Program-made: the position numbers and the translations under genes | Notes under the pieces: generated by a model | Seen by the model: only the letters and a program-made list of their open reading frames with translations | Databases searched by the model: none | What the model was told of the DNA's origin: nothing | Shown: piece by piece, positions 50,250 through 64,000 of the stretch | How the letters are laid out: the number at the start of each line of letters is the position of its first letter | Position numbering within the stretch: the stretch's first letter is position 1 | NCBI RefSeq assembly: GCF_002078015.1 | Contig: NZ_LWBP01000208.1 | Location: forward strand, 1 to 64,000 | Direction: 5' to 3' | DNA: 64,000 nt | Source of the DNA: Niastella populi | GTDB taxonomy: Bacteria > Bacteroidota > Bacteroidia > Chitinophagales > Chitinophagaceae

Positions 50250-50921
50250 TTATTTGAATATTACGGCTTCTATGCTGAAGATGGCCAGTATATCATCCAT
50301 TTTTCGGGTGGTTTCAGGATAATCATTTGCGTTTTCGGCAGAGAGAATGATGCTGTTATTTTCGCCGCCGGGCCTTACCCTTCTTATGATGCCTTTGAGG
50401 TTTTTGTCGACTATATAATAAAAGAAGCCGGCATTGAGGATCTTTGTGAAGCGTAGTTTTTTTATGGCGATCCAGTTGCCGCTTCGGAATTTTGGTTCCA
50501 TGCTATCGCCGGTAACCGGTATAACGCCATCAACATCACCGATAACGGGCGCCTCTATACGTGCTGTAATGAGAACAGGTTGTTCGCTTATGGTTACAAT
50601 GTTGCCGGGAGCAATATTGTTATCGAACAACAATAATGGTTCTTCATCCTGCGCAAGAAAAATACCGGTTAAAAAAGCGGCAGCAGATGATCTTGTTTTT
50701 CTGTTACCATTCAATTTTGGATCTTCAGAAACCTGGTCGGGCACATTCTCCATTTCATTGAGATACTCAACCAGCTTGTTATATAATCCAAAGTCGCTGG
50801 GCTTTGTACCTTTCTCCCACTTGTACAGGTTTTCTTTAGAAATACCGGTAGCTGCTGCAATGGCAGGCATCTTAATTTTCTTCTTTTTCCGGAACTCCTT
50901 TAACCTTTTGCCAATTTCCAT
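50250..50921 (-). CDS. XRE HTH / S24 (LexA-like) repressor, copy 1
   Basis: 223 residues from the ATG at 50921 (an in-frame TTG stands 3 codons upstream at 50930). An XRE helix-turn-helix occupies about 1-60 (KIKMPAIAAATGISKENLYK). An S24 peptidase-like domain follows with the nucleophile Ser in VTGDSMEPKF and the strand FYYIVDKNLKGIIRRVRPG. At the place of the catalytic Lys (VKRL in LexA) the sequence reads IRRV, so self-cleavage may not occur. A palindrome lies between this gene and the divergent 51036 gene. Copy 2 is at 51575-52234. Confidence 0.88.
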   Translation of the reverse strand: MEIGKRLKEFRKKKKIKMPAIAAATGISKENLYKWEKGTKPSDFGLYNKLVEYLNEMENVPDQVSEDPKLNGNRKTRSSAAAFLTGIFLAQDEEPLLLFDNNIAPGNIVTISEQPVLITARIEAPVIGDVDGVIPVTGDSMEPKFRSGNWIAIKKLRFTKILNAGFFYYIVDKNLKGIIRRVRPGGENNSIILSAENANDYPETTRKMDDILAIFSIEAVIFK

Positions 50922-51574: not shown

Positions 51575-52234
51575 TTAATATCTTAATATGCCGGCAATTA
51601 TTTTAAATACAGCTTCAATTTGCTCCCAGGTACGCTGAATTGGCGGAAAGAGGTGTTGATTGGGATTGTCTGAAACAAGCAGGAGACTGTTCTCTGTTTC
51701 GCCTTTGTATACCCGACGAATGATTCCCTGCCAGTTTTTATCAATTATGTAGTAATGCAGCCCCCAGTTAAGTATTCTTGAGTCGTTCAGCCTGATAATG
51801 CCTATACGGCAGCCATTGCCGAAGGTAGGCGCCATGCTTTCACCCGTTACTTCAATAACGCCATCTACAGGCCCCAGAAAAGGTGCATTGATGCGGTCGA
51901 CAATAAGTTCAGGTTCATCATTAAAAAAGGTAATGGTACCGGCAGCAGCTTTGCCATCAGTTTGAGGAACAGGCAACAGGTTCAGGTTCAGCGGCAACCT
52001 GAGCGTAGCGGGTTTTTGAGTATCCCTTTCAAGCTGCTCCTCATGGAATTTGTTCTCCATTTCATCGAGGTACGCTTTTAACCTGAAATAATCGTTTAGA
52101 TCACTGGGTTTGGTTCCCTTTTCCCATTTGTATAAGGTTTCCTTTGCTATGCCGGTAAGAAGGGCAATGGCAGGCATTTTAATTTTTGTTCTTTCCCGGA
52201 ACGCCTTAAGTCTTTGAGCCAGGTTATGATCCAT
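51575..52234 (-). CDS. XRE HTH / S24 (LexA-like) repressor, copy 2
   Basis: 219 residues, clearly paralogous to copy 1: KIKMPAIALLTGIAKETLYK and WEKGTKPSD in the HTH, VTGESMAPTFGNG with the nucleophile Ser, and HYYIIDKNWQGIIRRVYKG, where the Lys position is again IRRV. The linker between domains is shorter and Pro/Leu-rich (ATLRLPLNLNLLPVPQTDGK). A 20-bp palindrome 104 bp upstream (52338-52357) is a likely self-operator. Nothing in the sequence says which genes it controls. Confidence 0.87.
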   Translation of the reverse strand: MDHNLAQRLKAFRERTKIKMPAIALLTGIAKETLYKWEKGTKPSDLNDYFRLKAYLDEMENKFHEEQLERDTQKPATLRLPLNLNLLPVPQTDGKAAAGTITFFNDEPELIVDRINAPFLGPVDGVIEVTGESMAPTFGNGCRIGIIRLNDSRILNWGLHYYIIDKNWQGIIRRVYKGETENSLLLVSDNPNQHLFPPIQRTWEQIEAVFKIIAGILRY

Positions 52235-53045: not shown

Positions 53046-53423
53046 ATGAACCAGAAACGTTTGAGGAGACCTTATCTGGAAGCTATTCAATCCATTAAAG
53101 ACTACATCGATCAGCATCCGCTGGAAATTAAAACGATCTCAACGCTCATTCACCAGACACATTCACAAATTGGTATCAATTTGCTGCACCAGGGATTCAG
53201 GCAGTTATTCGGCACCCGTATCAAGGAATACGAGATAAGGAAACGCCTGGAGGCCGCGGCCAATCTGCTAATGCAGGATGACCTGACCATGCAGGAGATA
53301 ACCGCGAAATGCGGTTACAGTGCGCAAAGTTCGTTTGTACGGGCGTTTAAAGATGTACATGGCATTACTCCCGGACAATGGCGAAGCCGTTATGTGCCCC
53401 TGCCGTTGCAGGAAGCATGTTAG
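53046..53423 (+). CDS. AraC-type HTH protein (DNA-binding domain only)
   Basis: 125 residues, just the double helix-turn-helix of AraC/XylS: IKDYIDQHPLEIKTISTLIH, LFGTRIKEYEIRKRLEAAAN, and the second motif DLTMQEITAKCGYSAQSSFV RAFKDVHGITPGQWR. There is no N-terminal ligand domain, so it would bind DNA without a built-in sensor. Its target is unknown. A large hairpin array follows 38 bp after the stop. Confidence 0.9.
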   Translation: MNQKRLRRPYLEAIQSIKDYIDQHPLEIKTISTLIHQTHSQIGINLLHQGFRQLFGTRIKEYEIRKRLEAAANLLMQDDLTMQEITAKCGYSAQSSFVRAFKDVHGITPGQWRSRYVPLPLQEAC

Positions 53424-53557: not shown

Positions 53558-54070
53558 TATACAGTAAACATTGCTGATGCACGGTGATGCACAGTTATAC
53601 AAAACACATTGCGTGACTAACCTTTTTATAATAACGTTGAACGCGTCATCGCACGAAACCCAGTACGCACAGGCATTTCAACCAAGGCGTGCAAACAGAA
53701 GAAGTAAAAGTGTGATTTTGTATAAAAAAAATGCAAACAGCGAAAATAAGGGAGTGTAAATTGCATCAGATATTTGAAGAAGCGGTTGAAACCGAAGATA
53801 CGCTAAGATGAATGTTGAGTTATCGGTTACCAGTTACCGGGAAATTAATTCAGGCAACCTGACAACAGGGAAACATTCTGAACCCCAGGGCCCGGCAATG
53901 GGATTCTGGTACCAGGTAACAACTACAACGGCCTTTCCTGATCTATTATAGAAGGTTTTTAACAGTGGCTTGCTGTGCTGCCTTTTTTCTTTAATTAAGG
54001 CACCCTGCAGTAAGCAAAAGCAACATGCTATTTTATAACGGTGATACCTACACAAATAAAAAGTGAGAAA

Positions 54071-54223
54071 ATGGTAAAAAAAAGTGCAAATGCGATAAAG
54101 ATGGTGAGTTATCTTGCATACAGATTAAAAGGACTCACACCCCAAAAAGACAAGACCGACCATAAAAAATACGACAATATAATTTCTCCTATTCAGACTC
54201 TGCTGGTACTAGATAAACTTTAA
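54071..54223 (+). CDS. possible small basic protein
   Basis: 50 residues from the ATG at 54071 (a GTG at 54041 extends it by 10). Lys-rich (MVKKSANAIKMVSYLAYRLK), with no signal peptide and no family. It precedes the small secreted protein gene by 58 bp in the same direction. It might be a peptide gene of the same locus or chance. Confidence 0.3.
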   Translation: MVKKSANAIKMVSYLAYRLKGLTPQKDKTDHKKYDNIISPIQTLLVLDKL

Positions 54224-54281: not shown

Positions 54282-54584
54282 ATGAAGAAATTTAAAATAT
54301 CAGAGATCTCAATTTTATCGGCATGCATGGCTATTCTGTTTATAATAATCACAAGCAGTTTCAATAAGAAATCGCATTTTATCTTTCACAAAGTAACAGG
54401 ACCGCCACGATCGACGAATCCAAATGATTATTATTATGCTCCGTATGGCTCTTGTACTGCCGCGGTAAATATAACCTGCGCGGCTTATTGGTCACAAAAT
54501 ACTATTCCCAACTTATACGCACATCCAGACATTACTGCCAAATTTCAATCGATTGCTACTGATGGCGAATACATTGACGAATAA
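54282..54584 (+). CDS. small secreted RSTNP/CX7C protein, copy A
   Basis: 100 residues from the ATG at 54282. A hydrophobic signal segment (about 6-30, ISILSACMAILFIIITSSF) is followed by a mature part of about 65 residues: VTGPPRSTNPNDYYYAP, then a cysteine pair spaced CX7C (C TAAVNIT C), AAYW, and a Pro-rich end with GEY. It is homologous to copy B at 55185-55469 (shared V(T/S)G, RSTNP, DY, P, CX7C, A-W-Q, P, G-Y). The paired cysteines and export point to a disulfide-bonded extracytoplasmic protein. The family is not identified; it resembles in style the small DUF6520-like proteins of Bacteroidota. Confidence 0.75.
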   Translation: MKKFKISEISILSACMAILFIIITSSFNKKSHFIFHKVTGPPRSTNPNDYYYAPYGSCTAAVNITCAAYWSQNTIPNLYAHPDITAKFQSIATDGEYIDE

Positions 54585-54615
54585 TCATAAGTTATAGATC
54601 ATTAAATACTAATTC

Positions 54616-55086
54616 ATGAAAAAAGAACAGCTCGTAAATATATTTTCATCAGCTCTTGTATTCTTATTTTTATATGCTAGCCTGAGCAAGTTTACGGATT
54701 TCAAAGGCTTCATATATGACATGAACAACCAACCATTCCCGAAATGGTTATCAGGTATATTGGTTTGGGCGGTACCAGCGGTTGAAATAGGTTTAGCTGT
54801 AATGCTGATTTTTAATAAAACCCGGCTCAAAGGCTTATATGGCTCACTAATTTTAATGTCATTATTCACGATCTATACAACATTGGTTTTATTTAAGGTT
54901 TTTGATAAAGTTCCATGCTCTTGTGGAGGAATAATTAAAAACTTAACTTGGACACAGCATTCGATCTTAAATTTATTTTTCGTCTGCATTGCGATCTTTG
55001 GAATTATTATAATGAGAAAAGACAAAGCCCACGATACCGATCGACTCCCCTATCAAAGAAATACACCGACACAAAATTTAGCTTAG
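54616..55086 (+). CDS. MauE/DoxX-type redox-associated membrane protein
   Basis: 156 residues with four membrane helices (about 5-25, 45-65, 73-97, 115-135). The motif VPCSCGGIIKNLTWTQH between helices 3 and 4 is characteristic of Bacteroidota MauE-like proteins; MauE relatives are distant to DsbB/VKOR-type redox partners and help form disulfides in secreted proteins. It lies 31 bp after copy A and 98 bp before copy B, in the same direction. Its natural clients are probably those cysteine-pair proteins; that is inference. Confidence 0.85.
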   Translation: MKKEQLVNIFSSALVFLFLYASLSKFTDFKGFIYDMNNQPFPKWLSGILVWAVPAVEIGLAVMLIFNKTRLKGLYGSLILMSLFTIYTTLVLFKVFDKVPCSCGGIIKNLTWTQHSILNLFFVCIAIFGIIIMRKDKAHDTDRLPYQRNTPTQNLA

Positions 55087-55184
55087 ATGAAAATATTTTA
55101 ATAGAAATATGCGCATATCAGGGGCAACTGAAAACCTGTATAAAAGAGTAAGTAATCATTAACTTTATTAACAAATTTTATTTT

Positions 55185-55469
55185 ATGAAAAAGATGCAAA
55201 TGACAGCAGCTATCCTTGCTGTAGTGATTGTAGCAGCTAGCGCTTTCAAAACTTCACCTAGCACTAACTATCAGTTCACAAGAGTATCTGGAGTTGATCG
55301 CAGCACAAATCCAGCCGATTATAAGTTTCAACCCAACGATGGTGGAGAGTGTCTTAGCAGTTCAACAAAAACTTGTTTGGCTTCTTGGAATCAAATAAGT
55401 GCTCCTGCAGTTAATAGCCAACCAACTGGCACTTTTGTTAGCCATGACACAAATGGCAGCTACCAATAG
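55185..55469 (+). CDS. small secreted RSTNP/CX7C protein, copy B
   Basis: 94 residues. A signal peptide (MTAAILAVVIVAASAFKTSP) is followed by VSGVDRSTNPADYKFQP and a CX7C pair (C LSSSTKT C), LASWNQ, and a Ser/Thr/Gly-rich end finishing GSYQ. About 25 positions match copy A despite different linkers, so both come from a duplication. It ends 19 bp before a strong shared terminator and is convergent with the TlpA-like gene. The function is unknown. Confidence 0.78.
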   Translation: MKKMQMTAAILAVVIVAASAFKTSPSTNYQFTRVSGVDRSTNPADYKFQPNDGGECLSSSTKTCLASWNQISAPAVNSQPTGTFVSHDTNGSYQ

Positions 55470-55487
55470 TAGTTTCTAATTATATGT

Positions 55488-55516
55488 AAAGCCATTGATC
55501 GATGATCAATGGCTTT
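55488..55516. terminator. bidirectional terminator between copy B and the TlpA-like gene
   Basis: A perfect 13-bp stem (AAAGCCATTGATC at 55488-55500 with its complement at 55504-55516, loop GAT) with A/T tails. It reaches the stop codon of the TlpA-like gene. Confidence 0.93.
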
Positions 55517-57060
55517 TATCGCTTGCTTATTGCCTCATTGATGGTAAGAATTAATTTCTCAACCCCACCTTTTCTAAGTTTTTCACTATCACTTATCAGT
55601 AATTTACCTTCTCTATCGAGAATTATTGAAAAAGGATATGCGATAATGTTTAACCGTTTAATGATAGGATGAGCCACTCCCTGCCCATTTGTATAAAGGT
55701 TAATTGCTTTGGCTGAAGTATATTCACCGCTACGCAATCCTTGCAACCATTTATCTTTATTCCCATCAATCGATATAGTTACAAATACCACGTCTTCGTT
55801 ATTTTCAAATTTATTTTCCGCCTTCGAAACATGTTGTTTATAGTATTGCATACAACCACCACAGCCTGTAAACCAAAAATCTATAAAAATTATCTTACCC
55901 TTTAAACAAGAGAGTTGAAAAACTTTCCCAGAAGTATCCAAAAGCGGATAATTGAAAAAACCACTGCCAATCTTCTGATTTTCCAGAGTAGAAGACAACA
56001 CCTCCTTATATCTCTTATCATTCACTAATAATACAGCTTCTCCCAACAAACTATCAATTTTCGGAAGATTAGTATTATTGAGTAAATAACTAGTAAGCAA
56101 CCGCTCCTGCAATATCCCGCTATATTTATCTTTTATCAAACTATAAATGTCATTTTCTTCAAAAAGGGTACTTTCCAAGGCTAACTTAAATAAAATAGTA
56201 GAGGGCAATATATTTGATTTCGCCTGTACCTCAGGCCTTTCAATAACTTTAAAATTATCTCTTATGCTGTTATATTCATCGCGAAAAAGGTACACCTCGT
56301 TGGCAGCGCCCATCCGTTTAGTGAACTTCAAATGATAATTCATTCCTCTAAAATAAAGCTCCTGTATTCGTCCCTGCAGATCAGCTGTCAATAATCCGAA
56401 AACGCTTGAAGAGACAGAGTGTCTTAATATTTCCAAATATTTTAATCCTCCTGTTAAAACATAATTCATATTACTATACAATCTCCTCGATTGTTCCACC
56501 AGGTCTCTGACACGGCTATTAGCAATAGAAGTAGTATCCCAAATTGCTTGCAACCTTTTTGTTTCCTCCCACAACTGGTATTGAACTGAATAAGTAGCGG
56601 CCGATTTACCAGAGAATCTAAACATATCACAATTAGTACAAAGCTTTTCCCCATTATCATCAGTAAGCCATTGTTTCTCCTGCTCATTTATCTCAGCTGC
56701 ACCTATTTCCACATGAACATTGTCGCCGGGCGAAACTATCATTAAGTCTAATAGAGGAATAGGTACACCCCTGAATTTATTTCTCCCAATTGTAATATAG
56801 GACAAATCATAAATGCTGTCAATTTCAAAACTAAATGAATGATTGACCACTTTACTACTATACTGCCGTTTAATGGTAAAATCTTTTTTTTGATTGGATA
56901 TAACGTTATCCCAATAACAAAGCGTAAGTGAGTCGGCTGAATTATTATTACCAATAAACTTTCCTGAAATAATTACCTTATTTTTCTGAGCTTTTACATT
57001 TAAAAAAGTACAGACAATCAAAACAATCAAAATCAAAACATTTTTCAAGAATCGATACAT
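55516..57060 (-). CDS. TlpA-like thioredoxin-fold protein with N-terminal beta domain
   Basis: 514 residues. Signal peptide (NVLILIVLIVCTFLNVKAQ), an N-terminal beta-sandwich (about 25-120, VIISGKFIGNNNSADSLTLC, with a CxxC at 141-144), a helical middle, and a C-terminal thioredoxin domain (about 370-514) with FIDFWFTGCGGCMQYYKQHV, active-site Cys400 and Cys403 as CGGC. It is probably a periplasmic or surface thiol-disulfide oxidoreductase. It is the last gene of the SusC4-SusD4 operon (64 bp gap), so it may act on a cysteine-containing ligand taken up by that transporter, or on small secreted proteins encoded next door. Confidence 0.88.
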   Translation of the reverse strand: MYRFLKNVLILIVLIVCTFLNVKAQKNKVIISGKFIGNNNSADSLTLCYWDNVISNQKKDFTIKRQYSSKVVNHSFSFEIDSIYDLSYITIGRNKFRGVPIPLLDLMIVSPGDNVHVEIGAAEINEQEKQWLTDDNGEKLCTNCDMFRFSGKSAATYSVQYQLWEETKRLQAIWDTTSIANSRVRDLVEQSRRLYSNMNYVLTGGLKYLEILRHSVSSSVFGLLTADLQGRIQELYFRGMNYHLKFTKRMGAANEVYLFRDEYNSIRDNFKVIERPEVQAKSNILPSTILFKLALESTLFEENDIYSLIKDKYSGILQERLLTSYLLNNTNLPKIDSLLGEAVLLVNDKRYKEVLSSTLENQKIGSGFFNYPLLDTSGKVFQLSCLKGKIIFIDFWFTGCGGCMQYYKQHVSKAENKFENNEDVVFVTISIDGNKDKWLQGLRSGEYTSAKAINLYTNGQGVAHPIIKRLNIIAYPFSIILDREGKLLISDSEKLRKGGVEKLILTINEAISKR

Positions 57061-57124
57061 GTCTGGTTAAATTTTATTTAGAAATAGGTCAGATAAAACA
57101 GGATGACGGCTCACAACTATAATG

Positions 57125-58492
57125 CTATCTGGGATTTTGTTCAATTCCGCTAATCCTGATTTCTGTTAATGGGATTGGCAATACATATCTCGGATCGTTC
57201 GGCGGTAAAGTATACACCTGGGTATCCACCACACGGGTTAGGGTTTTGGCAAATTTAGGCTCCCTGTTTAATCTTTTGAGGTCGGTCCATCTCAACCCTC
57301 TAAAACATAATTCTTTTCTTCGTTCACTTAATATCTTTACCAAAGCTTCATCTGTAGAATTAGCTACAACCGGAACAAATAATCCGGTTTTCCATCTTTT
57401 TACAAGTAGAGCATTAAGATCGGCCATTGCACCTGATACATCACCTAATCTTGCTTTACACTCCGATCTTATTAGGTACATCTCATCAGTGGCTAAACCA
57501 TTAAACGGACTGGAAGTTCCATCGTACGAACCTTTAAATCTTGAGTTAACGCTGTTTGCAAATAATGACATCCGGAGATCATTAACTTCATATGATTTTA
57601 AAAGCACTGTATCCATTCTACTAACAACCAGCCCTCCATATACCAGCATTAAATTGTGAAAGATTACCTCAGGATTATACCGCTTAAATGGACGAGCATC
57701 AGAAGGCTTAAGTGTGTTGTAGTCTATCAGGGAGTCAGTTATTCTAAGTGCAGAATCAGCATACTTACCCGCACTTTCAAAATCACTCATTGATAAGTAG
57801 ACCCTGGAAAGCATTGCAAATGCTGCTGGTTTTGATGGCCGGGTTTTATACTCCGGTCGAACGGGTAATAAAGTAATTGACTGCTGAAGATCACTTAATA
57901 TCTGATGGTAGGTATGCTGCAAGTTTGACCGAACAGGCTTTTCATTCACATTGCTGGACAAACGCAATGGAATTCCTAGTTCACTGTTAGCAGCTCCATT
58001 GGTATAAGTACCAGCAAAAACCTGTGAAAGGTTAAAAAAATCAAACGCTCGATAAAAAAGTGCACTGCCCTTGACATTATTCCAAGCATTTACTACTGAC
58101 GCGTCCTTTGATACTTTCTGAATGCCATCTAATATAATATTAGTATTCAAAATTCGCCGATAAGGCTCTTCCCAATCAAGTGTGGTCATACCTTCATAAA
58201 TATCTTTTGCCCATATATAGGAGTTTCTTTCTTCAATTTCTCTCGCCTGCAATACAGGTACAGTCATATAACAATTATCAGAGGAAATCTCGCCAAGACC
58301 AGGTGCTCCGATATTAAATAAACTATTTGAATTATCAAGCAAAGCCTGGTAGTCCCGGACGGTACTGGGGACTGCCAAAGCCTTGTTGGGTTTTGCGTCG
58401 AGCCAATCCTTCTTGCAGGAACAAAAGGCAATTAAAACCACCGACATTCCGATCAGCACAATTGATTTGTATGCGTTATATATAGATTTCAT
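57125..58492 (-). CDS. RagB/SusD family lipoprotein (SusD4)
   Basis: 455 residues. The lipobox is FCSC (VLIAFCSCKK), followed by DWLDAKPNKALAVPSTVRDY. Landmarks are KGSALFYRAFDFFNLSQVFA, YLIRSECKARLGDVSGAMAD, LSERRKELCFRGLRWTDLKR and a short terminal YVLPIPLTEIRISGIEQNPR. It partners SusC4 (23 bp gap). Its DXK start and short C-terminus place it among non-glycan-type SusD proteins, but that is uncertain. Confidence 0.94.
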   Translation of the reverse strand: MKSIYNAYKSIVLIGMSVVLIAFCSCKKDWLDAKPNKALAVPSTVRDYQALLDNSNSLFNIGAPGLGEISSDNCYMTVPVLQAREIEERNSYIWAKDIYEGMTTLDWEEPYRRILNTNIILDGIQKVSKDASVVNAWNNVKGSALFYRAFDFFNLSQVFAGTYTNGAANSELGIPLRLSSNVNEKPVRSNLQHTYHQILSDLQQSITLLPVRPEYKTRPSKPAAFAMLSRVYLSMSDFESAGKYADSALRITDSLIDYNTLKPSDARPFKRYNPEVIFHNLMLVYGGLVVSRMDTVLLKSYEVNDLRMSLFANSVNSRFKGSYDGTSSPFNGLATDEMYLIRSECKARLGDVSGAMADLNALLVKRWKTGLFVPVVANSTDEALVKILSERRKELCFRGLRWTDLKRLNREPKFAKTLTRVVDTQVYTLPPNDPRYVLPIPLTEIRISGIEQNPR

Positions 58493-58515
58493 ATTACTTT
58501 ATTAACGGTTACTAA

Positions 58516-61500
58516 TTAAAAGCCTGCTTTAATGCCAAAAGCAAAAGTCCGTGGCGCCGGAAATCCATTGAAAGGATAATCAGGATCTATTTTTTCATCA
58601 TTAGCTCTCCATAATATGCCAAGGTTATTTGCATAAAAATATACCTGAATATTGCTTAATGATAACATGCGGTTGAACAGCTTTCCCTGAAAATCATAGC
58701 TGAGGCTAACATCCTGCAAACGTATATGATCTCCCCTTTCGACAAGTATTTCCGAATATTGATAAAACCTGTCCCTGTTAGCATTGGCAGGATATGACAT
58801 TGAAGGCACATTGGTACTATTTTCATCTCCTGCTTTCTGCCATCTCCGAGTAAAATCTTTGTGCAGGCTCCATGAATTGAAGAGCATGCTATAGTTGACA
58901 CTATTACGATTGAAATAATAACCCAGCTTATAGGAAATATTAAAGGTCAATCCAAAGTTTTTATATGAAATGCGGTTATTGATGCCTCCAAAAATTACAG
59001 GCCGTGCGGGTCCATGAAAAACCAAACTATTGACAGAAGTCGGGCTTAAGAGATCTGTGTAATTTTTACTGACGCCTTTTGATGAATCGAAACCCTGGGG
59101 ATCGCCTGTAGCTGGATCAAGACCAGCCCATTTGAAGCTATAAATACCATATACCGGTTTACCCTCAACAGGAGAAACAATTTGTCCGGCACCTACTAAT
59201 CCACTCGGTTGAATATTTGTTCCTGTGTATTTATTTACAATATCCTTTGCCCAACTGAAAATAAATGTAGTAGTCCATTTAATTTGCTTGTCGATATTCT
59301 TCGACGTAATCTGGATATCCACTCCATTCCCTTTAATTTTAGCATAATTACCCTGTAAGTTGGTAATACCAGTGCTAGGCGCAAATGGAGAATAGCCGAT
59401 CATATCAACTCCGTTTTTATGGAAATATTCAATACTTCCTGAAAGGATATTCTTCGCCGTACCAAAATCTAATCCAACATTGAAAATGCCGATCTTTTCC
59501 CAACGAAGTTCCGGATTACCTACATTATTCAATCTGGCAAAGACTGCATTTGTCAGCGGGCCTGTGTACCCCGGGTAGAAAATTGTAGAAACAGCAGTTA
59601 TGTTTTTATCTAAGTTTCCATTATAGCCAAAAGTTGCCCTTAGGCGCAATAAAGGAAATACGCTTGAATGGTAAAACCGCTCATGATCGATATTCCATTT
59701 TCCTCCAACAGACCATAGGGGAACGTTCTTCTGGTTAGTCTCCACACCAAAATAATTTGAACCGTCGACTCTACCACTCAATGACAATGTGTAACGATCG
59801 TCAAACGTATAAGCGCCGTTAAAATAATAAGATCGAAACCTGTCCAACGAACCTCCAGTTGAATTGCCGTAAGGAATAAGCGCACTTCCTACTGGATTAG
59901 TTGGAAATACAGTGGTATTATTGACAGGCTGGGACGTACCTAGTTCATCATTATATCCATAAAGCGTGAAACTATTACTTTCTGTCTTTACCTCTCTTAC
60001 TTCTGAGCCGGCGATCATTGTAACAAAATGTTTGCCCCAAGTATTAAAGTAGCTTATCTGGCCGCGGAGGTTATTTGAGCTAAGTTCACTTGTTGAGTTA
60101 GCCAAGATACTTCCATATGGAATATTATACCCTGCAAAAGAACTATCAGGGTTGGCTGAAGCATACCGGTTTATAAAATATCTAGTATAATAGCTTTGAT
60201 CGGTATGTAAGTCTTTTGCTCTCGAAAGCGCTCTTTGATATTGGTAACGAATTTCAGCGCTCAAACCCTCAATTATTGTGTACTTTAATCGTGTACTCAA
60301 TCGAATATCACTGTTCCGCGTTTTACTTGTATTCCACCCTCCGCGTAATTCTTCTAAAGGATAAAACTTTCCATTGAGATAACCATTTGATTCCGCCCAG
60401 TCAACATAGGCAGTTGAATAGTCTTTTACAAAAGATAAAGGTGCACCATCCTCACCTGCCAATGAAGCATATGGATATACAGTATTGTATCCTCCTCCTG
60501 TAGAAATCTGACTTAAAGTATTATCCTTACCGGCAGATGATTGTATATAATTGAACCCACCTGTAATTTCCAGATTTTTTACCGGAACAAAAGTATTCAT
60601 CGAGTTTAACGTAAACCGGTTAAACCCTTCCTCTTTCTGCGTGGTTCTATTTCTATCAATACCAATGGAAACATAGTGGTTCAATCTGTTGTTTCCTCCA
60701 CTTAAGCTTAGCGCATACTGTTGATTAACCATCCTTCTGTAAAAATACCTCGACAAGTCGTTTCGAACATCAAGGGTCTTAAACTCGTCAATTTGCTTAC
60801 CAGCCTCACTTTGTGACAAAGTACCTCTTCTGACCTGATCCAAAATTTGCACAACTGGTGAAATGGGAGGACTAGATGCATCATTCAGATCCCCGTCATA
60901 AAACCCTTTCTCAAAAAGATAATTTTCTACACCAATAAACTCATTTGATGAAACAAAGCTGGGAGAGTAAAAAAGATCGGGCTTTTCACTAATGGAAATA
61001 TTACTGTTCAATTGTACTTTCAAAGCTTCATTCAATTTTCCTTTCTTTGTTGTAATAACGATTACCCCGTTGCCAGCTCTGACACCCCATATTGAAGCTG
61101 CTGCAGCATCTTTAAGAACATTTATATTTTCAATGTCGTTGGGGTTTATATTATTGATATCACCATCGTAGGGAAAGCCGTCTATTACAATTAAAGGATT
61201 GTCGTTAGCATAAATGGTGCTTCGTCCTCTGATACTCAATTTTGGTGTAGAGCTACCAGTTATACCAGGTGTGTTAAAAGCAAGTCCACTGGTAATACCT
61301 TCCAACCTGCTTAAGATGTCCGTTGAAACCCTGGAAGTATACATATGTTTGATTGGCTCCGAAAAAGAACCGGTTGCCCTTTCTTTTGGTATCTCCTGAT
61401 AACCAGTATTTACCGAAACAACAACTCCACTCAACTCACTAATTTTCGCTTTGAGCGAAATCGCCAACTCCGTCTTTCCACTTACCTTCAACTCAAAAGT

Positions 61501-62094
61501 CTCCATTCCAATATGCGTAAAAACCAATACCGCATCCTGCTCAACTGTCGTCAGTGAAAATTCGCCATTTTTATCTGTCAGCGTTTTCTTGTCTATTCCT
61601 TTCACTAAAACCGTAACCCCCTCAACCGGCTCGCCCTTCTCATTCACCACCCGTCCCCTAACATCGATAAACGGGGGTGCGGCGCCGCCAGGCATCGCCG
61701 GAGTTACTTTCTCCGCCTTTATCGCCACACTCTTCCCTACGATCTTATAAGATAACTCCTGCCCTTTTAAACATGCATCCAGTGTTTGTGCCAGTGTAGC
61801 ATTGGTAACCTGTATACTAACCTTCTTGTCCTTTACCGTTTCATCCTTGTAAATAAACACGAAACCGGTTTGGACCTCGATCTGTTCAAATACCTTCTCG
61901 AGCGACGCATTGTTCAGCGCCAGGGTTATTTTCTCCTGGGCGAGGCCTTTTGCAGTAACCTGCAGCGCGGCAGCCAATAAAAAAATAGCAGTTAACTTCA
62001 TGATCCGCAATGTTTTTGACAATCCCCTTTCCAGCAGTAATAGTTTTGGTTTTACCCCCAAAAGGGAGCCTTTGCCAGATACAAAATCTGTCAT
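58516..62094 (-). CDS. SusC/RagA transporter with STN signalling domain (SusC4)
   Basis: 1192 residues. An unusual N-terminal extension (about 1-31) precedes the signal core MKLTAIFLLAAALQVTAKGL; such extensions are common in this subfamily, so the start at 62094 is kept. Next comes an STN/secretin-like domain (about 55-125, NNASLEKVFEQIEVQTGFVF), a carboxypeptidase-like domain (about 147-220), a plug (RLEGITSGLAFNTPG, INVLKDAAAASIWGVRAGNG), and a barrel ending AFGIKAGF. The STN domain can pass ligand binding to an anti-sigma factor, matching the ECF/FecR genes upstream. It is the first gene of the operon with SusD4 and the TlpA-like gene. Confidence 0.96.
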   Translation of the reverse strand: MTDFVSGKGSLLGVKPKLLLLERGLSKTLRIMKLTAIFLLAAALQVTAKGLAQEKITLALNNASLEKVFEQIEVQTGFVFIYKDETVKDKKVSIQVTNATLAQTLDACLKGQELSYKIVGKSVAIKAEKVTPAMPGGAAPPFIDVRGRVVNEKGEPVEGVTVLVKGIDKKTLTDKNGEFSLTTVEQDAVLVFTHIGMETFELKVSGKTELAISLKAKISELSGVVVSVNTGYQEIPKERATGSFSEPIKHMYTSRVSTDILSRLEGITSGLAFNTPGITGSSTPKLSIRGRSTIYANDNPLIVIDGFPYDGDINNINPNDIENINVLKDAAAASIWGVRAGNGVIVITTKKGKLNEALKVQLNSNISISEKPDLFYSPSFVSSNEFIGVENYLFEKGFYDGDLNDASSPPISPVVQILDQVRRGTLSQSEAGKQIDEFKTLDVRNDLSRYFYRRMVNQQYALSLSGGNNRLNHYVSIGIDRNRTTQKEEGFNRFTLNSMNTFVPVKNLEITGGFNYIQSSAGKDNTLSQISTGGGYNTVYPYASLAGEDGAPLSFVKDYSTAYVDWAESNGYLNGKFYPLEELRGGWNTSKTRNSDIRLSTRLKYTIIEGLSAEIRYQYQRALSRAKDLHTDQSYYTRYFINRYASANPDSSFAGYNIPYGSILANSTSELSSNNLRGQISYFNTWGKHFVTMIAGSEVREVKTESNSFTLYGYNDELGTSQPVNNTTVFPTNPVGSALIPYGNSTGGSLDRFRSYYFNGAYTFDDRYTLSLSGRVDGSNYFGVETNQKNVPLWSVGGKWNIDHERFYHSSVFPLLRLRATFGYNGNLDKNITAVSTIFYPGYTGPLTNAVFARLNNVGNPELRWEKIGIFNVGLDFGTAKNILSGSIEYFHKNGVDMIGYSPFAPSTGITNLQGNYAKIKGNGVDIQITSKNIDKQIKWTTTFIFSWAKDIVNKYTGTNIQPSGLVGAGQIVSPVEGKPVYGIYSFKWAGLDPATGDPQGFDSSKGVSKNYTDLLSPTSVNSLVFHGPARPVIFGGINNRISYKNFGLTFNISYKLGYYFNRNSVNYSMLFNSWSLHKDFTRRWQKAGDENSTNVPSMSYPANANRDRFYQYSEILVERGDHIRLQDVSLSYDFQGKLFNRMLSLSNIQVYFYANNLGILWRANDEKIDPDYPFNGFPAPRTFAFGIKAGF

Positions 62095-62326
62095 AGTTTT
62101 GTGTGTTAGGTTAAATAATTATACGCTCCAACGTTAATTTTCGTTAACCTGAATCAGCCGGTTGTGCTTCCAACACAATCGGCATTTTTCTGCCTCTCCG
62201 TGGCGGTTAACTTTTTGCGGATTTGGTTATGGTTAGCAGTATGCTAATGGCAATTGTTCGCGAGGATGAAGGTATGGTCGTTTTGATCAAGGGTATTGGT
62301 ACAGAATGCAAAACAAAGCCAACAGC

Positions 62327-62572
62327 TCAGCTTAATTGTACATACTGGCTGTTGTACCTGTAAACATTCCCAATGCTTAGTGAAGTTGTCGTAATACAGT
62401 ATTTGGATAAGAATTTACTTCCGTAACCGGAAGCTGTTGTATTGTATATGCAGGTTTGAATACTTGTGAAAGTTGTGGAACCCTCTTTTACAGGAGGGAA
62501 AAATGTTACGTAGCTTGTTATGGTCATACCAATAACCAAACAGAGGCTGATTAATTGCCTGGTTGCTTTCAT
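62327..62572 (-). CDS. small secreted cysteine-containing protein
   Basis: 81 residues from the ATG at 62572 (an upstream ATG at 62605 adds 11 residues). Signal peptide (TRQLISLCLVIGMTITSYVT), then a short Ser/Thr/Tyr-rich mature part with two Cys (TCIYNTTASGYG and KYCITTTSLS). It has no RSTNP motif, so it is not a close homologue of copies A and B, but its size, export and cysteine pair are alike. It stands between the sigma gene and SusC4, same strand. It could be a further client or ligand of the system. Confidence 0.5.
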   Translation of the reverse strand: MKATRQLISLCLVIGMTITSYVTFFPPVKEGSTTFTSIQTCIYNTTASGYGSKFLSKYCITTTSLSIGNVYRYNSQYVQLS

Positions 62573-62950
62573 TTTCGTAGCGGTTTTTAACAGTTTAATG
62601 TTCATGGTTGCGCTCGCTCAGGCCATACAACCGTTATCGCTTTTCATGGTTTGGATACACTATATAATCTGCAGTTGCACTAACTCTGCCTTATCATACA
62701 GCTTTTTTTATCCGGAAAAAACAGTGCTGCCGTCATCATTACATAAAGCGTTATCCTTTTACTTCTACGCAATCATTTTCGGCAGCACAGATTTTAACTA
62801 TTTCTCTTAGGCCTTTCCCGGTTTCTCTCACTCAACAAAAGAAAGCCCTCTACTCAATCAGTAGTGGAGGGCTGTAAGTCCTAACGTATAAACTACCCGG
62901 GTTTCAATATCAATCAAATGGTAAAGAGCAATGGATAAGGTCGATCGTTC
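62573..62950. other. intergenic region between the sigma gene and the small secreted protein gene
   Basis: 378 bp. It contains the terminator-like hairpin after the sigma gene (62842-62874). Plus-strand open frames here look like shadows with no start context. Confidence 0.5.
62842..62874 (-). terminator. terminator of the second sigma gene
   Basis: AGCCCTC near 62845 pairs with GAGGGCT near 62866-62872, with TACT/AGTA inside. On the minus strand a T-rich tail (TTTCTTTTG) follows. Confidence 0.75.
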
Positions 62951-63517
62951 TTATGCAGCCAATGATAATTCAAGTTTCCGGCTTACATACTGTTGTACTT
63001 TCTTCATGGCTATATTTATAGAGGCATCTACCGTGTTTACCGATACCTTCATTATGGAGGCAATCTCTTTGCGGCCCAATCCCATATCGCGATAAATAAA
63101 TACCCGCTTTTGCTTTTCGGGCAGCTGTTGTACGGCTTTCATCGCTATACGGCCTATTTCTTTTACTACTACCGCATCATGCGTATATGAATCTTCACTG
63201 AGGCGGCAATAATCCTTATACAACGGCCTCTTGCGCAATTCTTTTTTATAATGATTATGGCAACTGTTCCTCGTCATGATAAACAAATATCCTTTCGCAT
63301 TTGTCATTACTGCGCTTAACCTGTCGAGTTGTTGCCACAACTTTAAAAACACTTCCTGCGCCATATCTTCCGCCTCCTGTTTCGACCCTGTATATTCATA
63401 CGAATGGCGAAATACTTTGTACCAGTATTCCCGGTAAAGTGCATTAAAAAACTGCTCCTTTTCGGGCGTTGTGCCTTCATTTTTCTTTATGGTATCGTAT
63501 GTGCAAACCTGTTTCAT
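62951..63517 (-). CDS. ECF RNA polymerase sigma-70 factor (second locus)
   Basis: 188 residues. Region 2 (FFNALYREYWYKVFRHSYEY to EAEDMAQEVFLKLWQQLDRL) and region 4 (LPEKQKRVFIYRDMGLGRKE to MKVSVNTVDASINIAMKKVQ) are complete. It lies directly after the FecR gene (51 bp) and before the small secreted gene and SusC4. In the other locus sigma precedes FecR; here FecR comes first. It likely controls the SusC4 operon. Confidence 0.94.
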   Translation of the reverse strand: MKQVCTYDTIKKNEGTTPEKEQFFNALYREYWYKVFRHSYEYTGSKQEAEDMAQEVFLKLWQQLDRLSAVMTNAKGYLFIMTRNSCHNHYKKELRKRPLYKDYCRLSEDSYTHDAVVVKEIGRIAMKAVQQLPEKQKRVFIYRDMGLGRKEIASIMKVSVNTVDASINIAMKKVQQYVSRKLELSLAA

Positions 63518-63568: not shown

Positions 63569-64000
63569 TTAGCCTCTAATGATTAACTTTTTTCCTTCAA
63601 TTTTATAATTAACATCCAGCACATTCAACAATTTCAACACTTCGGACAGGTTTGCATTTCTATATATTTTACCGCTGATCTCTTCGTCGCTTATATTTCC
63701 TTCATACACTACATCCACATCATACCAGCGGGCTATTTGCCGCATAATGGTTTTCAGGTTCTCATTTTTAAAATAGAACAGTCCATTCTTCCACGCTACT
63801 TCCTTCGTAATATTTACACCTTTATTTACTTTGATATTATCTGCCACCACCTGCGCCTGCTCTCCCGGTTTTATCATCACCTGGCTTCCTCCCCTTTTTA
63901 CCTTCACCGCTCCTTTCAGCAACGTGGTTTTCACTGAACCCTCATCGCTATACGAATTAATATTGAACACGGTTCCCACTACCTGCACTTCAGTGCCATT
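63569..64000 (-). CDS. FecR-family anti-sigma factor, 3' part
   Basis: The frame is open to the window edge (reads NGTEVQVVGTVFNINSY), so the start is outside; the GTG at 63988 is internal. Visible are the end of the FecR domain (VVGTVFNINSYSDEGSVKTT, GAVKVKRGG, KPGEQAQVV) and the C-terminal DUF4974 domain (FKNENLKTIMRQIARWYDVD to VNYKIEGKKLIIRG). The membrane helix and N-terminal segment are beyond the window. It is expected to control the adjacent ECF sigma. Confidence 0.9.
   Translation of the reverse strand, partial: NGTEVQVVGTVFNINSYSDEGSVKTTLLKGAVKVKRGGSQVMIKPGEQAQVVADNIKVNKGVNITKEVAWKNGLFYFKNENLKTIMRQIARWYDVDVVYEGNISDEEISGKIYRNANLSEVLKLLNVLDVNYKIEGKKLIIRG

Follow-up and report, generated by a model that had tools for sequence, protein, structure and literature searches.

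A recurrent MauE and cysteine-peptide gene set facing a SusC-SusD receptor operon in Niastella populi and its relatives, a candidate ligand-receptor system

Organization of the locus

The window analysed here is a stretch of 64,000 nucleotides (positions 1 to 64,000 of the forward strand of contig NZ_LWBP01000208.1) from the genome of Niastella populi (8.6 Mb, 263 contigs). Within it, two small exported peptides flank a MauE-type membrane protein and face an operon encoding a SusC receptor, a SusD-like lipoprotein and a TlpA-like thioredoxin protein. This gene set recurs in related genomes and may constitute a peptide ligand with its own receptor. The features of the locus are as follows.

53046..53423, plus strand: AraC-type regulator of 125 amino acids (aa) with a helix-turn-helix (HTH) domain only (HTH_18, 67.6 bits); constant left flank of the cassette
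54282..54584, plus strand: exported peptide copy A, 100 aa, signal-like N-terminus, CX7C (sequence; BLASTP with copy B)
54616..55086, plus strand: MauE, predicted to have four long helices with a PCSCGG loop preceding the last (PF07291, 111 bits)
55185..55469, plus strand: exported peptide copy B, 94 aa, signal-like N-terminus, CX7C (sequence; BLASTP with copy A)
55488..55516, no strand assigned: bidirectional terminator hairpin, 13 bp, folding on both strands
55516..57060, minus strand: TlpA-like exported thioredoxin protein with CGGC (Thioredoxin_8, 40.8 bits)
57125..58492, minus strand: SusD-like lipoprotein (SusD-like_3, 119.6 bits)
58516..62094, minus strand: SusC/RagA receptor with STN, CarbopepD_reg_2 and Plug domains (TIGR04056, 530.8 bits)
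62330..62605, minus strand: probably the 5' remnant of tlpA (start matches the intact TlpA of locus L015)
62951..63517, minus strand: sigma factor of the extracytoplasmic function (ECF) type (Sigma70_r2 and r4_2 over cut-off; TIGR02937, 72.7 bits)
63569..64000, minus strand, continuing past the window to C207:64792: FecR anti-sigma factor (PF04773, 72.8 bits)
C207:64931-65536: second sigma factor, upstream of the first

A preliminary description, made from the sequence of the window, had placed copies A and B on either side of MauE and, convergent to them, a SusC(STN)-SusD-TlpA(CGGC) operon with a shared terminator. This layout was confirmed. MauE scored 111 bits against a PF07291 cut-off of 27, the operon was supported by Pfam and TIGR matches, the CGGC motif of TlpA was read directly from the sequence, and the terminator hairpin gave z values of -3.75 and -6.43 on the two strands. 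The receptor exceeded the TIGR04056 cut-off of 368.25 bits and its STN domain scored 47.1 bits (cut-off 28.4), while FecR was well over its cut-off of 24 bits. The sigma factor was over the cut-off of TIGR02937 (72.7 versus 42.9) and under that of the narrower TIGR02985 (113.3 versus 126.4). The receptor STN, FecR and an ECF sigma factor, which together make up a FecIRA-type gene complement, are thus all present. The AraC-type HTH gene, FecR and the second sigma factor were absent from the preliminary description.

Copies A and B are homologous (33% identity, E 6e-15 in BLASTP), small and exported to judge from their signal-like N-termini, and carry both RSTNP and CX7C, as had been claimed. 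RSTNP is common to these two copies and does not occur in the other aligned peptides, among which C-x(4-9)-C recurs instead. The structure model of copy B was poor (predicted local distance difference test, pLDDT, 58) and was not used. The MauE model (pLDDT 87) comprised four long helices with the CxC before the last one, and positive charges favoured a periplasm-facing CxC loop (the loop could be placed in 53 of 97 sequences). Comparison with VKOR/DsbB-like folds gave VKOR-like rows at Z 6.7-6.9, and the best structural row was NACHO/TMEM35A (Z 12.1, root-mean-square deviation 2.3 over 117 residues), a level that chance alone may give with helical bundles. Foldseek with this model returned no match at E<=0.001, GGCX chains standing near the top without any conclusion being drawn from them, and neither the MauE nor the peptide profile had solved-structure relatives at E<=1.

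A third small exported two-cysteine protein had been proposed at 62330-62605. This assignment was not confirmed. The open reading frame (ORF) begins with MKATRQ; its first 18 residues are 83% identical to the intact TlpA that occupies this position in Longitalea arenae (L015), and its remainder is unlike that protein. ORFs with the same start occur at this place in L024, L041 and L097. The ORF is probably a remnant of a tlpA gene displaced by cassette exchange; alternatively, it may be a conserved leader peptide.

Recurrence of the gene set

Ten genomes of the genus (N. populi included) yielded 84 MauE matches, 2 to 13 per genome. Nine fused matches (9/84, frames of 380-445 aa) were dropped and the neighbourhoods of all 75 single-domain matches were inspected; 20 roughly evenly spaced regions of one genome, read on both strands (40 position-strands), served as control. 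Downstream of MauE, within 4.5 kb, 53/75 cases had an exported ORF containing two or more cysteines, versus 2/40 in the control; a convergent SusC lay within 8 kb in 32/75 versus 4/40, and an HTH gene just upstream in 42/75 versus 0/40. Cysteine peptide and convergent SusC were found together at 30 of the 75 MauE genes and at none of the 40 control position-strands, which bears out the earlier view of the gene set as a linked unit.

Several architectures recurred. Type I, in which MauE and a peptide face SusD-SusC-FecR-sigma, was present in all ten genomes (upstream peptide labelled in 8). Type II, consisting of HTH gene, MauE, peptide and an exported protein of ~350 aa facing TlpA, was likewise present in 10/10; SusD-SusC was visible in nine of these, L051 stopping at a contig end, and the ~350-aa protein had no Pfam match over cut-off. 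Further recurring architectures were that of the window and one with glycosyltransferase-like genes (identified by eye; no Pfam match for the one tested) and a small thioredoxin, the latter often near a protein of the S9-peptidase kind (one checked). Loci of this last kind (L003, L004, L005, L031, L033 and similar) combine glycosyltransferase-like genes and a small thioredoxin with peptides that have very similar leaders and 2-6 cysteines, and sometimes face the S9 peptidase; these peptides might be glycosylated.

Homologues of copies A and B spread widely without MauE would have spoken against the proposed link. A search of the ten genomes with the peptide profile returned 18 matches at E<=0.01, 16 of them within ~1 kb of MauE, and so did not refute the link. 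The profile itself contains eight of these 18 as rows; of the ten not included in it, eight adjoin MauE. The two matches not near MauE (G005:C1:2996524 and G003:C1:296875) were the weakest by list position. Copy A matched at E 4.4e-14, being itself a row of the profile. One leader pattern was matched by 39 genus peptides, every one of which has 2, 4 or 6 cysteines. The plasmid collection, searched with copy B, gave no match.

At the level of the family, 117 of 394 genomes matched one MauE query, and 42 of 395 genomes of the phylum matched a MauE profile at E<=1e-12. Among the loci fetched, a small exported ORF directly followed MauE in 30/30 at family and 27/29 at phylum level. Such an ORF with at least two cysteines was found in 27/30 and 27/29, the phylum count omitting L187, whose visible four-cysteine peptide failed the signal filter. 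Convergent SusD and SusC were present in all 22 loci laid out in detail, which were picked partly after their nearest genes were known and do not include L136 and L140 with their other layout. The 16 intact family loci were taken mostly in match-list order, after the nearest genes had been viewed. In another family of the class (L175, L177, L180, L186, L194, L202), a MauE protein of ~505 aa, whose Pfam match covers the first 135 residues only (one tested), stands with a DUF6520-like peptide near MobC/relaxase-like genes (by eye); this pair may travel on mobile elements.

Allele exchange at one chromosomal site

The HTH site was recovered nine times when named genomes were scanned, three of these copies being L015, L024 and L041 again; L105-L111 (Clostridium and other weak HTH matches) were left out. 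Among seven alleles the HTH regulator is 76-96% identical. Large blocks of the flanks align at ~70-83% DNA identity. Short pieces apart, this similarity stops near window position 54,020-54,140 and resumes inside SusC at ~61,050-61,400. L015 and L041 share 96% identity in the HTH protein versus 37% in MauE, 19% in the peptide, 27% in SusD and 25% in the SusC barrel, and L015 and L096 share 83% in the HTH protein, 61% in MauE, 68% in the peptide and 79% in SusD. Flank and cassette therefore disagree on relatedness.

The boundary on the right falls within the receptor. Approximately aa 1-240 of SusC, comprising STN and CarbopepD_reg, are conserved between alleles (53-83% identity to the window in 60-residue blocks), and the plug and barrel are mostly variable, most later blocks being lower (13-65%); aa 301-360 of the plug are an exception (52-82%). 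The SusC identities of L103 were not used because its stretch has a length that is not a multiple of three and was probably read in the wrong frame. Peptides are 15-31% identical between alleles versus 26-54% for receptors. The site has been emptied of its cassette in N. soli (L101) and in a Niastella metagenome-assembled genome (L104), the latter retaining a broken sigma stub. The alignments indicate that peptides, MauE, TlpA, SusD and the SusC plug and barrel have been exchanged as one cassette between constant flanks.

Alleles with larger peptides occur at L102 (11227-12161), where no MauE was seen, and at L103 (10702-15538), which has a MauE without CxC and a metzincin (DUF4953/DUF5117/DUF5118) adjoining SusD. 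Two related HTH repressors at window positions 50250-50921 and 51575-52234 (S24-type in the one tested) are kept beside the site in most relatives seen and resemble duplicated phage-type regulators.

The MauE CxC motif and the peptide cysteines

The CxC motif is kept in 76 of 78 MauE proteins of the genus-plus-site set. After the family searches, six loci with a CxC-less MauE had been found, CxC status having been read for the fetched loci. Their nine downstream peptides have 0, 1, 0, 2, 0, 4, 0, 0 and 0 cysteines; six of the nine are thus cysteine-free and one keeps C-x(4-9)-C. Under the same collecting rule, 40 of 47 ORFs at intact loci carry this motif, and when six ORFs judged by eye to be other or spurious are removed, 38/41 carry it and 41/41 have at least two cysteines. 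This comparison indicates that the CxC of MauE and the cysteine pair of the peptides are largely lost together. L168 is a telling case for the putative redox link: its peptides and SusCD are nearest to those of the CxC-less group, but its MauE is intact, and TlpA and the cysteine pair are present.

TlpA is part of the set at the window locus, as had been described, but is not an obligatory member, being present in 23 of 35 fully visible intact loci. It was found in none of the four fully visible CxC-less operons (Fisher p 0.022, shared descent ignored), L103 and L155 being left out of the count because their visible sequence ends inside SusC; with partly visible loci counted, p was 0.003 on the same basis. 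A related protein of ~158 aa adjoins SusD in five of the six CxC-less loci, and a metzincin in the sixth. This protein (L097, 12746-13222; homologues in L153-L156; no Pfam match for the one tested) occupies the place that TlpA has in many other loci.

Co-segregation of peptide and receptor

The nearest neighbour of a locus by mature peptide was also its nearest neighbour by SusC barrel in 11 of 28 loci and by SusD in 8 of 28, with ~1 expected in each case and neither value reached in 20,000 permutations (0/20,000). Agreement with MauE was found in 2/28, a value reached in 5,709 of 20,000 permutations. Agreeing pairs extended across genera (L160-L165, L162-L164, L158-L172 for the barrel only, and L015-L161). 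Judged by these neighbours, the peptides track the SusC barrel across genera, and not MauE.

Relation to known systems

No published description of a peptide-MauE-SusCD set was found in the open-licence literature of PubMed Central, which proves no absence, nor was a paper on DUF6520 or NVEALA found there. Methanobactin clusters generally require modification enzymes of the MbnB/MbnC type. Among the accessible descriptions, methanobactin comes closest to the logic of the Niastella locus: a genome-encoded peptide (MbnA), a TonB-dependent receptor (MbnT) with an N-terminal extension in some species, and a FecR-like sensor with an ECF sigma factor (MbnR/MbnI) (PMC3621798, available part). The Niastella locus differs in that its eight scanned proteins have no Pfam match to MbnB/MbnC, its cysteines are apparently paired and not turned into heterocycles, its receptor is a SusCD pair, and MauE and TlpA are present.

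In receptor behaviour the closest system, as far as the available text of the source goes, is RagAB of Porphyromonas gingivalis, a SusCD-type peptide importer that exists in four alleles and whose RagA is conserved at the N-terminus (PMC11817032). By sequence, RagA is related to the SusC of the window (6sli, E 1.3e-41); peptide import by the latter would be an analogy drawn from this relationship. RagAB differs in taking up peptides of digested proteins, and the same text mentions neither MauE nor a cognate exported peptide (PMC11817032). MauE homologues beside small cysteine-rich precursors were reported among Streptomyces decRiPPter candidates, with a proposed role in precursor modification, which in the portion of the article available is an earlier proposal of MauE acting on small precursor peptides, as here (PMC7794033). 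That case concerns another phylum, and the portion cited contains no SusCD, allele or covariation evidence.

DUF6520 (PF20130) was considered as the family of copies A and B and rejected, because copy B remained under the cut-off (14.2 versus 25.4 bits) and copy A had no match. The family resembles them in leader and size, and members or near-members follow MauE in other loci. The agr system of Staphylococcus shows allelic co-variation of peptide, maturation protein and receptor, the receptor there being a membrane histidine kinase. The joint variation is alike, whereas the proteins are unrelated and SusC, FecR and sigma factor stand here in place of the histidine kinase. Four agr groups are named in the accessible part of the cited source (PMC3573103).

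Interpretation and alternative explanations

Taken together, these observations suggest that the locus encodes a dedicated ligand-receptor pair, in which a disulfide peptide matured by MauE acts on its own SusCD and signals via STN, FecR and sigma factor. We consider this somewhat more probable than all alternatives combined (about 0.56). Copies A and B would be made as precursors with Sec-type signal peptides, and MauE in the inner membrane would use its CxC loop to put a disulfide across the C-x(4-9)-C of each peptide. After release, the mature peptide would be recognised by the cognate SusC barrel and the SusD lid, and perhaps imported; its binding would be relayed via the STN domain of SusC to FecR and the ECF sigma factor, adjusting expression. 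TlpA, exported with the receptor set, might reduce or otherwise handle the disulfide after uptake. Through cassette exchange, species would carry different peptide-receptor types, as lock and key.

Several observations weigh against this ligand-receptor reading. At about ten of the 75 MauE loci no peptide was seen, and N. yeongjuensis (L102) has peptides without a MauE being seen. The second peptide in all ten type-I loci has five cysteines, an odd number, and falls outside the leader pattern. CxC-less MauE proteins form one clade (support 0.97; four of the six in the tree, the other two having been removed by a score filter), so that the association between CxC and cysteines rests on one or few events, and both Fisher values for TlpA ignore this shared descent. 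Cysteine-bearing peptides persist at CxC-less loci, with four cysteines and the motif at L154, two off-motif cysteines at L153, a single one at L097 and a four-cysteine peptide upstream of MauE at L103. Since CxC-less MauE is retained, the protein would also need a non-redox role. Distance correlations were also less specific than the nearest neighbours: the weak peptide-SusD value of 0.158 (3/2,000 permutations) was equalled by peptide-MauE (0.154; 23/2,000), peptide-FecR reached 0.067 (372/2,000; 19 loci), and without the CxC-less group peptide-SusD fell to 0.131 (53/2,000), with peptide-SusC barrel at 0.082 (200/2,000). A whole-matrix mirror-tree comparison was rejected because it did not discriminate (MauE-FecR 0.666 versus MauE-SusD 0.674 in the same 40 loci); nearest-neighbour agreement was used instead. 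Finally, no outer-membrane exporter was seen at the locus.

The allele diversity and the loss of whole cassettes at one site would also be expected of an arms race, in which the disulfide peptide is a narrow-spectrum, bacteriocin-like toxin entering rivals via a type-matched SusCD. The tandem peptides, of which L096 and L168 have three each, and the 2 to 13 MauE matches per genome fit such antagonism. We regard it as unlikely, albeit less so than the other alternatives, because no constant immunity-like gene was seen and the producer has the receptor next door, wired to STN, FecR and sigma factor; seven proteins tested had no match in PADLOC, a library that covers anti-phage systems only. A scavenger function, in which the released peptide binds a metal or scarce compound and is recovered via SusCD as methanobactin is via MbnT, with MauE setting the thiol state, would suit the mostly even cysteine numbers and shares its logic, the N-terminal receptor extension, the FecR-like sensor and the ECF sigma factor with what the available part of the source gives for MbnT (PMC3621798). 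The missing MbnB/MbnC-type matches among the eight locus proteins, together with cysteine-free alleles that have a homologous peptide and a related receptor, make it somewhat less credible still, since a thiol-metal ligand should not tolerate the loss of its cysteines.

That peptides track the SusC barrel and SusD, and that the locus shows no exporter, would also be understandable if the peptide were not released as a ligand but formed a small subunit of its SusCD in the periplasm or at the surface, MauE and TlpA serving its folding. Peptide and receptor genes lie on separate convergent strands with a common terminator, and between alleles the peptides diverge more than the receptors (15-31% versus 26-54% identity), which leaves this explanation with a probability slightly lower again. 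It is very improbable, by comparison, that the MauE-peptide units are real and the SusCD operons merely unrelated transport loci. N. populi is rich in TonB receptors, with at least 150 plug-domain matches in its genome, and 43 of the 75 MauE loci lack a convergent SusC within 8 kb; such chance proximity is nevertheless difficult to reconcile with the enrichment over the control (32/75 versus 4/40, and 30 versus 0 with the peptide), with SusD and SusC in the 22 detailed, partly preselected loci (L136 and L140 excluded), and with the co-segregation of peptide and receptor.

Biological significance

As the biological purpose of the proposed ligand-receptor pair, self-sensing or type recognition is preferred here, given that the receptor adjoins the peptide and is connected to a sigma factor of its own. 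A broader proposal, which we put forward tentatively and hold to be possible rather than probable, is that Bacteroidota use such sets for peptide pheromone or kin-type recognition: polymorphic, self-made SusCD ligands oxidised by MauE would signal via STN, FecR and ECF sigma factor, with peptide, maturation protein and barrel as exchangeable alleles and the sensor domain constant. Chemistry and specificity alike can be tested directly in harmless soil strains, thanks to the matched alleles, the emptied sites and the natural disappearance of CxC together with the cysteine pair. Bacteroidota possess great numbers of SusCD pairs without an assigned ligand, for which a nutrient is usually presumed. 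If the proposal is true, a self-encoded ligand for one class of SusCD would change how such receptors are read, and the phylum would gain a peptide-signalling or type-recognition system.

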